Assembly: GCA_036493895.1 (NCBI GenBank)
Contig: DASXOZ010000028.1
Span: forward strand, 62,001 to 126,000
Source of the DNA: Candidatus Binatia bacterium
Lineage (GTDB): Bacteria > Desulfobacterota > Binatia > UBA1149 > CAITLU01
Reading direction: 5' to 3'
DNA length: 64,000 nt
Positions 55,987 to 60,397 of the stretch are shown piece after piece. The first letter of the stretch is position 1; each line of letters opens with the position of its first letter. The notes beneath the pieces were generated by a model. The model had not been told where the DNA came from. It was given only the letters and a program-made list of their open reading frames with translations, and made no database searches. The position numbers were made by a program, and so were the translations under genes.

Positions 55987-58152
55987 CTACGGCGCCGGCG
56001 GCAGCCCGTACGCAACGACGCCGCCGTGGGCGAGATTGCTGCTGAACGGATCGCCGTACGGGACGTAGATCACGCCGTTGTCGATCGCGGCGCCGCCCAT
56101 CACGGTGCCGGCCGGCACCGTCAGAGTCGCAAGCCGCGCGCCGCTCTGGATGTCGTACGCGTACAGAACGCTCGCCGACAACGTGCCGGCGAACACCATC
56201 CCGTTCGCCACCGTGACGCTGCTCCAGCTCTGGCCGATCTCGTCGGACCACGCGATGGTGCCGTCGGCTCCCGTGAATCCGAACATGTGGTCGGTCCCCG
56301 AGTACGTCGAGATGTCGTCGAGCGCCGCCAGGAAGCGGTCGGTGGTCTTGTCGTAAGCGAGCGCACCGTCGAACAGACCGAACCCGGCAAACGGAGGCGG
56401 GGAGGCCATCGTGTTGTGCCATACCAGCGCGCCGGTCTGCTGGTCCACGGCGTACATCGTTCCATCCTTGCCTCCGCCGACGGCCACGGCGTGAGTTCCC
56501 ATTCCCTCGGTGACATCCGCCAGGATCGGCCCGTTGAGGAAGCCGTAGTCGTGGTACGTCGGACCTCCGGGCCAGAACGTGAACTGCTCGATTCCCTCGG
56601 TGCGGTACACCCATTCGACTGCACCGGTGGCAGCGTCGAGCTTGAAGATGCTGTCGGAGTCGCCGACCGAAGGCCTCGACAGGCAGCCGACACTCGACAT
56701 GTAGACGTCCTTGCCATCGGGCGAGACGCTGGCCGTCGCCGTCACTCCGCCTCCGACGGCCGGCACGCACGCCGGGCAGTCCGCGTTGGAGGTGCAGGTG
56801 ATCGAGCGCTCGAGCCAGCACTGGCCGGTAGTCGCCGGCGGCGGATCGACGCATTCGCCCGGCTTGAGGAACGTGAACGGACAGTCGGCGTTCGTCATGC
56901 ACGCATGTTGAGGCTGGCTGTCGCAGGTGCCCAGCAGGCACGGCGAGCCTGGCGCCGTGCAATCGGAGTTGGCCGCGCACTCGTTGCCCGTGTCGTTGAA
57001 GCAGATGCGCTCGGGCATCGTGAACTGCTGCCACAGCTTGGTGCCGGTATCGAGATCGTACGCGAGCAATGTTCCGCGCACGCACGGTGCGTCGTTGTGC
57101 GACGCGATGCCCACCAGCACGCGATTGCCGACGACAACCGGGCTCGCCCACGCATGCGACGCCGCCGGATCGTCCACGCCGGCATCAGCGGTCCACAGAA
57201 GGGTCCCTTTCTTGCCGTCGAGGCAGTAGACAAACCCGAGGCTGTCGCCGACGAGCACGCGCCCGTCTGCAAGGATCGTCACCGAGCTCTGCACGCCGAG
57301 GCCGGGGTCTTGGGCCGCGCCGTTCGGCGTCGCAAAGTCCCACTTCACCTTGCCGGTCTTCTTGCTGAGCGCGTAGACGTGGCCGTTCCACGACGACGTG
57401 TAGACGAGCTTGTCTCCGACGGTGACGGTGGAGGAAATCGTCTTGCCGTGAGGCTGCTCCCCGCTGCCGAGGGTCGGCGGCACGAAGCTCCATTTCTGCA
57501 CGAGCGTGGCGACGTTGGCCTTCGTGATCGCCGTCTCGAGCGGATTGGCGCGGGTATTGGTGCGGTCGTAGCTGTGGACCGGCCAGTCGCGGGGCACGCA
57601 GACGAAGCTGAAGGAGTCGTCGTCCTCGCTCGTGCCGCTGATCGCCGTCACCTTGAACGAGAGCTTGGCGGCCTTGAATGCTCCGGTCCCGCTCGGCCCC
57701 TTCAGGGGCACGACAACGGACTGGTTCGTCGTGCAGACATTCGTCGTTGCCGGCAGCAACGCGGAAACCGCCGTCTGAAGCGAGTCGAGCCCCTTGCCGA
57801 CCACGGTGACTGCCGAGACGTCGCCGGGCGTGCACGAAGCCAGCGAAGGATCGGCGTTGCGCAGGCACAGGTCGACGTCGAACGTGCACGAGTTGTTGAC
57901 GACTCCGTCCAGGTCGCACCCCGGATCACCGTCGAAGCAGCGGATCGTCTTGGCGGGTTTCGGATTGGCCGGATTGTGGAATGGCGAGTTCAGGTGCAGC
58001 GCATCGCTGGCCAGCTCGGCGTAGCAGTCGGTGTTGGTGTCGCCTCCTCCCTTGACGGGACAGTCGGGCGGGCACTGGGCCCGGGCGAGGCCGGCGGTCA
58101 TCGCGGCAGCGGAGGCCAGTACGAATGCGAGAATGCTTCTGCGGTATGACAT
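55987..58152 (-). CDS. Secreted PQQ-type beta-propeller protein
   Basis: 721 aa. Signal peptide 1-25 (ends A-R-A) followed by C-P-P-D-C-P. After a 170-residue N-domain rich in Cys, PQQ-like repeats appear: V-Y-A-L-S-K-K-T-G-K-V-K-W, V-Y-C-L-D-G-K-K-G-T-L-L-W, L-A-Y-D-L-D-T-G-T-K-L-W and M-Y-A-V-D-Q-Q-T-G-A-L-V-W, about seven blades. Between two blades lies a Cys-rich insert (about 380-465) with repeated C-x(3)-S/A-D-C and C-x-x-x-x-C spacing, likely disulfides. True PQQ-dehydrogenase residues were not confirmed. The N-terminal calcium-loop-like D-T-N-T-D-C resembles the dockerin-like modules elsewhere in the window. Confidence 0.78.
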   Translation of the reverse strand: MSYRRSILAFVLASAAAMTAGLARAQCPPDCPVKGGGDTNTDCYAELASDALHLNSPFHNPANPKPAKTIRCFDGDPGCDLDGVVNNSCTFDVDLCLRNADPSLASCTPGDVSAVTVVGKGLDSLQTAVSALLPATTNVCTTNQSVVVPLKGPSGTGAFKAAKLSFKVTAISGTSEDDDSFSFVCVPRDWPVHSYDRTNTRANPLETAITKANVATLVQKWSFVPPTLGSGEQPHGKTISSTVTVGDKLVYTSSWNGHVYALSKKTGKVKWDFATPNGAAQDPGLGVQSSVTILADGRVLVGDSLGFVYCLDGKKGTLLWTADAGVDDPAASHAWASPVVVGNRVLVGIASHNDAPCVRGTLLAYDLDTGTKLWQQFTMPERICFNDTGNECAANSDCTAPGSPCLLGTCDSQPQHACMTNADCPFTFLKPGECVDPPPATTGQCWLERSITCTSNADCPACVPAVGGGVTATASVSPDGKDVYMSSVGCLSRPSVGDSDSIFKLDAATGAVEWVYRTEGIEQFTFWPGGPTYHDYGFLNGPILADVTEGMGTHAVAVGGGKDGTMYAVDQQTGALVWHNTMASPPPFAGFGLFDGALAYDKTTDRFLAALDDISTYSGTDHMFGFTGADGTIAWSDEIGQSWSSVTVANGMVFAGTLSASVLYAYDIQSGARLATLTVPAGTVMGGAAIDNGVIYVPYGDPFSSNLAHGGVVAYGLPPAP

Positions 58153-58230: not shown

Positions 58231-58710
58231 CTTGCAGTGGCGATGCAAGAACCTAACTCCACCGGGGAACTTTTCCCCGAAAAACCCCGTCATTGCGGAG
58301 CCCTTCGCCCGGACCCCGTCCCGATCGCACATCGGGAAATCTCGACTTGCGATCATCGCGAGCGTACTTTGAGCACCTCGGTTGCTTGCCTGGTCGGGGC
58401 GTACACAGGCCCCATAGCCGGTTTTCGCCGGTGACCGGGGTCGAGGGGGGACACCGGCGGTCCTTTCTGCGACAGCGGTTTCAGGGACCGCTCCTCTTCC
58501 ACCGCCGATAACAAAGGAGGTGATCCAGTGATCTATTTGTCCAAGGTGAACTGTGAGGTGGTGTCCTCTTAGGAGGACCGCGCTCCAGCACATCGCTGGG
58601 TCGCCCCTTTGACAGGGGACCCAAACACCACCGAACTCCGGCAGTCCCGCTTTCACCGGCGGGCCGGGCATCAAAACCCCGGAAAATCTGCCGGAGTTTG
58701 TGTTTCTTCC
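58231..58710 (+). ncRNA. Candidate highly structured RNA containing a 16-nt complement of the 16S 3' tail
   Basis: Exact stems include 58231-58236/58244-58249, 58263-58269/58273-58279, 58319-58325/58331-58337, 58396-58400/58409-58413, 58457-58463/58485-58491, 58557-58564/58625-58632, 58563-58568/58573-58578, 58585-58589/58595-58599, 58604-58608/58614-58618, and 58634-58644/58688-58698 enclosing two more hairpins (a three-way junction) followed by a T-rich stretch. Bases 58513-58528 are complementary to the universal 16S end CUGGAUCACCUCCUUU. The strand is not certain: on the minus strand the RNA would itself carry that 16S tail. CTCCT at 58491-58495 could hide the Shine-Dalgarno region. No known RNA family was recognised. 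Confidence 0.45.
58528..58572 (+). CDS. Possible 14-residue leader peptide with an extreme Shine-Dalgarno sequence
   Basis: GTG at 58528 follows AGGAGG by 7 nt, ideal spacing, within a 16-nt complement to the 16S tail. The reading frame is M-I-Y-L-S-K-V-N-C-E-V-V-S-S and stops at TAG (58570-58572). The stop lies in the TTAG loop of an exact 6-bp hairpin (GTCCTC/GAGGAC) that also contains a second AGGAGG. This resembles translational attenuator layouts, but no regulated gene follows on the plus strand, so it may be chance or part of the RNA structure. Confidence 0.3.
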   Translation: MIYLSKVNCEVVSS

Positions 58711-58795: not shown

Positions 58796-60121
58796 TTACC
58801 AGAAGTGCCGCGGCACCAGCGCCAGCTCGCGGGCCTGGCGCGCCAGCTCCTCTCGAAAATCGGGATGCGCGAGCGAGATCAGCGCGGTAGCCCTCTCGGC
58901 CACCGACTTTCCCTTCAGGTTGACGCTGCCGTACTCGGTGACGACGTGCATCACGTCGGTGCGCGGCGTCGTCACGATGTTGCCGGGCGTGAGAGTGGGC
59001 ACGATGCGGCTCTTTCTCTGTCCGTGCCTTTCGTAGGTGGAAGCCAGGCAGAGGAACGACTTGCCGCGGTCCGACATGTAGGCGCCGCGGACGAACTGGA
59101 GTTGTCCGCCGGTACCGGTCAGGTGGCGGTGCCCGTCGCTTTCGGAAGCCGCCTGGCCCTGCAGGTCGACCTGCGTCGTGTTGTTGATCGATACCACCCG
59201 GTCGTTGCGCGCGATCTGCGCGGGCAGGTTCGTGTAGTCCACCGGATAGCTGCGCACCACCGGCGATTGCCCGAGGAAGTCGTACTGGTGACGCGAGCCG
59301 CCGGCGAACGTAAAGACGACGTGGCCCCGGTCCATCTGCTTGCGCGACCCGTTGACGACGCCGGATTCGATCAGGTGCACCATCGCGTCGACGAACATCT
59401 CGGTGTGGATCCCGAGGTCGCGCAGGCCCGAGTCCTTCAACATTTCGCAGACGGCGTTCGGCATGCCGCCGATGCCGATCTGCACGCAGGAGCCGTCCTC
59501 GAGCTGCCCGGCGATCAGCGTCGCGACCTTGCGGTCCACCTCCGTGATCGGCGGGTTCGAAAGCTCGGGCAGAGGATTTTCGCCGCCGTCGATCACGTGC
59601 GCGACTTCGTCGATGTGGACGGCGCACTGCTCGCCGTGCACGCGCGGCATCGCCTCGGAAGTCTCGACGACGAGGATGCGGGCCTTTTCGGTGACGGCCT
59701 TGAGATGGCAGTTGGCCGCGCCGAAGTGGAACCAGCCCTCGTCGTCCATCGGCGTCGTCTTGATGCAGACGACGTCGATCGGGTCGAGGAAGCGGCGGTA
59801 GTACGACGGCGCCTCGCCGAAGTTCATCGGAATGTAGTTGCAGCGGCCGTCCGAGTTCTTGCCGCGGTCGTATGCGGAGAAATGCCAGTTGAACCAGAGG
59901 AAGTGCTCGCCGTCGGGATCGGCTTCGACGACCGCGCGCGGCGACATCGACACGCAGGCACGGATGCGAACGCCGCGAAGCTCGTCCTTGCGCGCCGCCA
60001 GCGCGCGATCGAACAGGTCGGGATGGGACAGCGCCGCGCCGTAGTCCACCCAGTTCCCCGACCGCACCAGCGCGGCGGCTCCTTCCGCAGAAATCGTTTT
60101 CTCGCGCAGCTTTGCGTTCAT
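58796..60121 (-). CDS. Acetyl-CoA hydrolase/4-hydroxybutyrate CoA-transferase family protein
   Basis: 441 aa from ATG 60121, with GGGAG just upstream. Class I CoA-transferase fold in two related halves. The proposed catalytic Glu241 is in G-I-H-T-E-M-F-V-D, preceded by Q-I-G-I-G-G-M-P-N-A-V. Other family blocks: F-N-W-H-F-S-A-Y-D-R and the C-terminal T-E-Y-G-S-V-N-L-K-G-K-S-V-A-E-R-A. It moves CoA between short acyl groups (acetyl, butyryl, 4-hydroxybutyryl, propionyl). The exact pair is not readable. A 23-bp palindrome lies 12 bp upstream of the start. Confidence 0.88.
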   Translation of the reverse strand: MNAKLREKTISAEGAAALVRSGNWVDYGAALSHPDLFDRALAARKDELRGVRIRACVSMSPRAVVEADPDGEHFLWFNWHFSAYDRGKNSDGRCNYIPMNFGEAPSYYRRFLDPIDVVCIKTTPMDDEGWFHFGAANCHLKAVTEKARILVVETSEAMPRVHGEQCAVHIDEVAHVIDGGENPLPELSNPPITEVDRKVATLIAGQLEDGSCVQIGIGGMPNAVCEMLKDSGLRDLGIHTEMFVDAMVHLIESGVVNGSRKQMDRGHVVFTFAGGSRHQYDFLGQSPVVRSYPVDYTNLPAQIARNDRVVSINNTTQVDLQGQAASESDGHRHLTGTGGQLQFVRGAYMSDRGKSFLCLASTYERHGQRKSRIVPTLTPGNIVTTPRTDVMHVVTEYGSVNLKGKSVAERATALISLAHPDFREELARQARELALVPRHFW

Positions 60122-60132
60122 CGGCTCCCCGG

Positions 60133-60155
60133 GCGCGTCTGCCTGGCAGACGCGC
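60133..60155. promoter_or_regulatory. 23-bp palindrome upstream of the CoA-transferase gene
   Basis: GCGCGTCTGCC and its exact complement flank a single T, ending 11 bp before the CoA-transferase start codon. The position fits an operator or a 5' hairpin that limits ribosome access. The gap to the divergent EIIA gene (60398) is 276 bp, with no other clear element. Confidence 0.55.
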
Positions 60156-60397
60156 AAATGGCAGTGCGGCCGGGCCGCGACGTCCCTGCCGTCTTCATCG
60201 GATACGCTCGCAAGCGTTCGCGCTCACGTCGCCATCCGCCCGCAAGAGACTGCCGCAGGCGCCGGGCGAGGCCAAGGCCCCCGCCGACCGCCGCCGCGAC
60301 GCGAAGAAATCGGCTGCTGCACGGCGCACGCCGCCCGGGCGTGTGCTACAAGACTTCGATCCGGGACCACAGCGGGACCACAGGTGGTGAAGTGAAG

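Follow-up and report, generated by a model that had tools for sequence, protein, structure and literature searches.

A divergent relative of Ms_IGR-5 RNA with a conserved short reading frame and mutually exclusive helices

The RNA gene and its neighbours

The window, a 64,000-nucleotide stretch of Candidatus Binatia DNA, contains between two minus-strand genes a region (58231-58710) that a first-pass annotation had described as 480 bp filled with structure. Our analysis places in this region, on the plus strand, a structured RNA gene with a predicted length of about 330 nt. The locus comprises the following elements.

55987-58152, minus strand: PQQ beta-propeller gene, flanking the RNA gene
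58342-58370, plus strand: probable promoter, with −35 TCGACT (58342-58347), a 17-nt spacer and −10 TACTTT (58365-58370)
58377-58705, plus strand: predicted RNA gene as a whole
58633-58708, plus strand: intrinsic terminator, a 12-bp stem (58633-58644/58688-58699) around two hairpins, followed by a T-rich tail
58796-60157, minus strand: acetyl-CoA hydrolase/transferase gene, next downstream and convergent with the RNA

The RNA gene as a whole is supported by the positions of the promoter and terminator, by DNA similarity within the class and by the fold z score, and its ends were placed from the elements along it. Within the region described earlier, the RNA proper is placed at about 58377 to 58705, and 58231-58376 is promoter and upstream sequence. 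The putative promoter aligns with the motif TGGACA-N17-TAnnnT conserved in class members, and transcription probably starts near 58377. The plus strand of 58231-58710 folds with a z score of −6.1, the minus strand with −3.05. The earlier proposal of a structured RNA is upheld, on the plus strand; homologues and covariation, which had been named as tests of it, are described below. The stem around two hairpins that had been recorded as 11 bp proved to be the terminator and to have 12 bp; in the class alignment 100% of its cells are paired, and four of nine pairs have changed on both sides. The minus strand had been read as carrying a copy of the anti-Shine-Dalgarno tail, but a role for it was rejected, since the conservation of coding, promoter and terminator all lies on the plus strand.

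The genes beside the RNA vary across its relatives, and those downstream differ in kind and strand with none shared, although these gene calls are rough. Given these varied neighbours and the RNA's own terminator, comparison shows that the RNA is a free-standing unit, as far as gene order and sequence can indicate.

Six Rokubacteria-type loci (L081, L084, L129, L156, L172 and L185) each have, downstream of the RNA, a gene of 61-66 codons that points towards it from the other strand (6/6); the one at L129, the sole one of the six tested, encodes a cold-shock protein (Pfam CSD). The presence of this short facing gene may be simple synteny. In mycobacterial loci such as L183, the RNA sits between genes for a class IV aminotransferase and a THAP4-like heme-binding barrel, which we take to be the equivalents of Rv0812 and Rv0813c.

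Kinship with Ms_IGR-5 and spread across phyla

Small RNAs of the Ms_IGR-5 type are already known. Rfam labels the family (RF02471) "Actinobacteria sRNA", function unknown; relatives have been seen in RNA-seq as a small RNA in Streptomyces lividans (PMC8079986) and as an sRNA transcription unit in S. avermitilis (PMC8780764), and the M. smegmatis IGR-5 overlaps ncMSMEG15794c (PMC10454040). At the Rfam gathering threshold nothing in the window was matched, and its score against RF02471 was 17.6 bits (E 0.11), under the cut-off of 45 bits. When 58 genomes of the class were searched with RF02471, the same locus was returned in most of the genomes matched. The best score, 49.1 bits, came from a genome (G029) that matches the window RNA by DNA similarity at E 3.2e-15, and a locus of the same phylum (L131) scored 49.1 bits against the family by cmscan. 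DNA similarity finds the region, whole or in part, in 29 of the 58 class genomes. Membership of the CC2171 family (RF01867) was rejected, its score being 18 bits in the window and at best 31 in the class against a cut-off of 75.

Homologues were also found in other phyla. A pattern scan of named genomes detected loci of this layout among Actinomycetota (Mycobacterium, Streptomyces, Brachybacterium, Saccharopolyspora and others), and likewise in Rokubacteria, one member of the Manganitrophaceae (Nitrospirota), one of the Solibacteraceae (Acidobacteriota), a Zixibacteria record and records titled Deltaproteobacteria, the title that records of the window's class bear. A looser pattern yielded, with the starting genomes counted, 17 true cases among 50 Zixibacteria-phylum genomes and 6 among 80 from the Acidobacteriota phylum. 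A covariance model built from Zixibacteria only reported matches in 50 of 61 loci, and in the 64 kb of the window its single match was this locus (E 0.0077). Outside the class, a phylum-wide scan with a one-mismatch pattern gave mostly chance matches, and the strict pattern found no copies in viral contigs.

The window RNA shares with Ms_IGR-5 an extended Shine-Dalgarno sequence, a short open reading frame (ORF) ending E-V-x-x-x-stop, long-range complementarity that can form a helix, and a terminator. We conclude from sequence comparison that it is a divergent relative of RF02471, with homologues in Actinomycetota, Rokubacteria, Acidobacteriota, Zixibacteria, Nitrospirota and the window's own class, at least six phyla. 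The suggestion that this might be an undescribed structured RNA therefore needs amending: a relative was already in Rfam, and what stands is the divergence from it.

The short reading frame and its ribosome-binding site

The first-pass annotation had pointed to a 14-codon frame that follows an extreme ribosome-binding site and has its stop codon in a hairpin loop, and each of these elements is found.

58513-58528, plus strand: extended Shine-Dalgarno sequence, all 16 nt of which match the universal 16S 3' tail by complementarity
58528-58572, plus strand: ORF of 14 codons plus TAG with a GTG start (MIYLSKVNCEVVSS); stop position conserved, starts in frame
58555-58561, plus strand: GAGGTGG inside the ORF (codons E-V), Shine-Dalgarno-like, nearly invariant, and making up the greater part of the ORF-side strand of the long-range helix
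58564-58568/58573-58577, plus strand: stop hairpin TCCTC-TTAG-GAGGA, with the stop codon in the loop

The sequence at 58513-58528 is AAAGGAGGTGATCCAG, complementary to CUGGAUCACCUCCUUU at every base; by chance about 3e-5 exact matches to a 16-mer would be expected over the two strands of 64 kb (2 x 64000 / 4^16). The first 14 bases of the match, AAAGGAGGTGATCC, have this one site in the 4.5-Mb assembly, also when a mismatch is tolerated, and the sequence AGGAGGTGRTC is conserved across phyla. The 16S 3' tail is near-universal, and it is on this that the match to the organism's own 16S rests, because the class genomes tested for the tail (G000 and seven others, a one-contig genome included) did not yield it. 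The rRNA may be absent from, or masked in, these genome copies.

Frame and stop of the ORF are strictly conserved. In all 109 non-redundant loci the stop codon lies exactly six codons past a TGT codon (TAG in 96, TGA in 7, TAA in 6), and 107 of them have an in-frame ATG, GTG or TTG. Start codons located 5-11 nt past AGGAGG are in frame in 66 instances and out of frame in none. Sequences of the same clade are not independent, so that such counts overstate the number of separate events. For many of the 109 loci, moreover, the scan pattern demanded TGTGAGGTGG, and part of that block's invariance therefore comes from the search itself; loci obtained through DNA similarity and through the Rfam model nevertheless agree on GAG GTG G with one exception, a class member (L202) in which GAG has become AAG (Glu to Lys). 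The 23 Acidobacteriota and Zixibacteria cases found without the Cys (TGT) requirement, of which 21 are new and two were already among the 109, all end at the same codon, and their Cys position is often Ser, Ala, Arg, Thr or Met; about ten chance matches in the same scan were without the stop pattern. The shared end of the ORF is x-E-V-[A/V/T]-x-x-stop, and the distance from GAGGTG to the stop is fixed. The stop hairpin was rejected as a universal element: 70% of its pairing is preserved across the class, and some mycobacteria have lost it.

Because the stop codon is fixed and nearby start codons occur solely in frame, comparison indicates that the conserved ORF is translated and that the RNA is not non-coding, although a mycobacterial relative has until now been classed as a non-coding sRNA. 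Ribosome-protected reads have been recorded on Ms_IGR-5 homologues in M. abscessus and M. smegmatis (PMC4974804).

Competing helices and possible roles

Besides the terminator and stop hairpin, five elements make up the structure considered here.

58389-58439, plus strand: 5' structured domain, with stems 58389-58395/58433-58439, 58396-58400/58409-58413 and 58417-58422/58427-58432
58557-58564, plus strand: first strand of the long-range helix, GGTGGTGT, inside the ORF
58625-58632, plus strand: second strand of the long-range helix, ACACCACC, pairing with 58557-58564, with compensatory changes within and across phyla
58592-58611, plus strand: internal mimic of the 16S 3' tail, ATCGCTGGGTCGCCCCTTTG, pairing with 58512-58532 and covering the Shine-Dalgarno sequence and start codon
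58597-58623, plus strand: hairpin H2, in which mimic bases pair with 58615-58623, competing with the mimic/Shine-Dalgarno pairing

The 8-bp long-range stem noted earlier corresponds to the helix that joins the ORF bases GGTGGnnn to the strand just before the terminator. It is 96% paired within the class and 97.8% paired in mycobacteria, where one pair is GC in 21 sequences, CG in 12 and UA in 2. In controls on the class and mycobacterial structures, the observed covariation score was reached in 0 of 500 shuffles and slid partner strands scored far lower. Partner strands also change together across phyla (GGTGGCTGGG/CCCAGTCACC, GGTGGCGTC/GACGTCACC and GGTGGCTACG/CGTAGCCACC), although these pairs were chosen by complementarity and serve as illustration, not as a test. 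The helix is bulged in Zixibacteria and some Acidobacteriota. The Rfam consensus of Ms_IGR-5 leaves the strand GcAGuCACC unpaired.

As a side observation, the RF02471 structure pairs the Shine-Dalgarno sequence with the ORF end, whereas our data favour pairing of GGTGGCTGC with GCAGYCACC.

Two further elements set the window RNA apart from Ms_IGR-5. The 5' domain, with 92-100% of pairs kept and compensatory changes in all three stems, is present in the window's clade and absent from actinobacterial members, and the 16S-tail mimic was seen in the window's clade only. Pairing of the mimic with the Shine-Dalgarno sequence is the minimum-energy fold, with a calculated opening cost of 16 kcal/mol; this helix is 96% paired in 15 members, and of the 15 class sequences folded, 11 favour the closed Shine-Dalgarno in the calculation. 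H2 is conserved as well (95% of cells paired in 15 members), and Zixibacteria carry an equivalent hairpin, TTGGG/CCCAA. At computed equilibrium the closed form is more stable than the alternative in which H2 and the long-range helix are present. Because these two conserved pairings of the mimic bases exclude each other, we propose a switch, and their conservation suggests that the RNA may alternate between the two states.

At roughly even odds (a probability of about 0.5), we favour a model where this free-standing RNA of about 330 nt doubles as a very small mRNA and a structured regulator, its fold being set by whether or not a ribosome is translating it. As the RNA emerges, a free 30S subunit would compete with the internal mimic for the Shine-Dalgarno sequence. 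A ribosome, once loaded, would translate through to the stop, where GAGGUGG would sit at an ordinary Shine-Dalgarno distance behind the terminating ribosome and could hold it for a while, keeping the long-range helix open; with no ribosome loaded, the RNA would fold into the closed form. The fold would in this way report ribosome availability or termination, and candidate outputs are the stability of the RNA, a 3' segment acting in trans or the retention of ribosomes. More tentatively, the homologues may together constitute a widespread class of ribosome-sensing RNAs in which being translated fixes the fold, with the mimic pitted against the 30S subunit in this clade and the core present in at least six phyla. 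If the switch idea is true, the RNA would be a compact ribosome sensor made of a message and, in this clade, a 16S-tail mimic.

Other readings account for part of these data. The RNA might simply be a small mRNA whose peptide of 11-17 residues, ending x-E-V-[A/V/T]-x-x, is the functional molecule, with structure controlling only translation and stability. Strict conservation of frame and stop and the extended Shine-Dalgarno sequence are in keeping with this, but most residues vary freely, with Ser, Ala, Arg, Thr or Met found in place of Cys and, once, Lys in place of Glu, and the part of the peptide that is fixed is encoded by bases engaged in the long-range helix; we regard it as unlikely. 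Still less probable is a trans-acting base-pairing sRNA in which the short ORF protects a seed such as CAGUCACC/CACCACC or times its exposure: the RNA is indeed a stand-alone unit with a terminator and varied neighbours, yet the conservation of the 3' strand of the long-range helix, which might mark a seed, is accounted for by its pairing with the ORF. A ribosome-titrating RNA, as the first-pass annotation had suggested, would capture and hold 30S subunits through the 14-16-nt Shine-Dalgarno sequence and the GAGGUGG near the stop. The uniqueness of the extended Shine-Dalgarno in the genome, the fixed GAGGUG-to-stop distance and the ribosome-protected reads on Ms_IGR-5 (PMC4974804) agree with titration, which we nevertheless rate slightly below the trans-acting reading, the Shine-Dalgarno being buried at computed equilibrium in this clade and very high RNA abundance being required. 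A cis-acting leader or attenuator of the adjacent gene, also raised earlier, was rejected as highly improbable: the short ORF, competing helices and terminator resemble leader-peptide attenuation, but the next gene here is convergent, leaving no same-strand gene directly downstream, among the relatives the gene that follows varies in type and orientation, and the terminator stem lies outside the competing helices.

The favoured reading, of a message whose translation sets its own fold, can be placed beside known systems. Attenuators of the trp type contain a very short translated ORF with codons in competing helices. The window RNA likewise has a tiny ORF whose codons join competing helices, but it has no downstream gene and its terminator is not among the competing alternatives. 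SgrS/SgrT is a dual-function sRNA, structured and stand-alone, that has a terminator and encodes a short peptide; the window RNA resembles it in these features, but the bases of its ORF themselves form a helix strand and it has no known pairing target. New with respect to the described Ms_IGR-5 RNAs are, on comparative grounds, an ORF that is conserved and apparently translated, occurrence outside Actinobacteria, a long-range helix that the Rfam consensus lacks and, in this clade, the added 5' domain and the masking of the Shine-Dalgarno sequence. None of these points was found in the openly available literature searched, and a literature search for the peptide or the RNA motif returned nothing relevant. 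That an RNA classed as an actinobacterial sRNA encodes a conserved mini-ORF and extends well past the Actinobacteria makes its function testable in laboratory strains of Mycobacterium smegmatis or Streptomyces.

The Caulobacter sRNA CC2171 bears some likeness to these RNAs in that its consensus contains, at the start, AAAGGAGGUGAUCCAGUG, but the readable part of that consensus is without the GAGGTG-x-x-x-stop motif; CC2171 may likewise combine an extended Shine-Dalgarno sequence with a short ORF.
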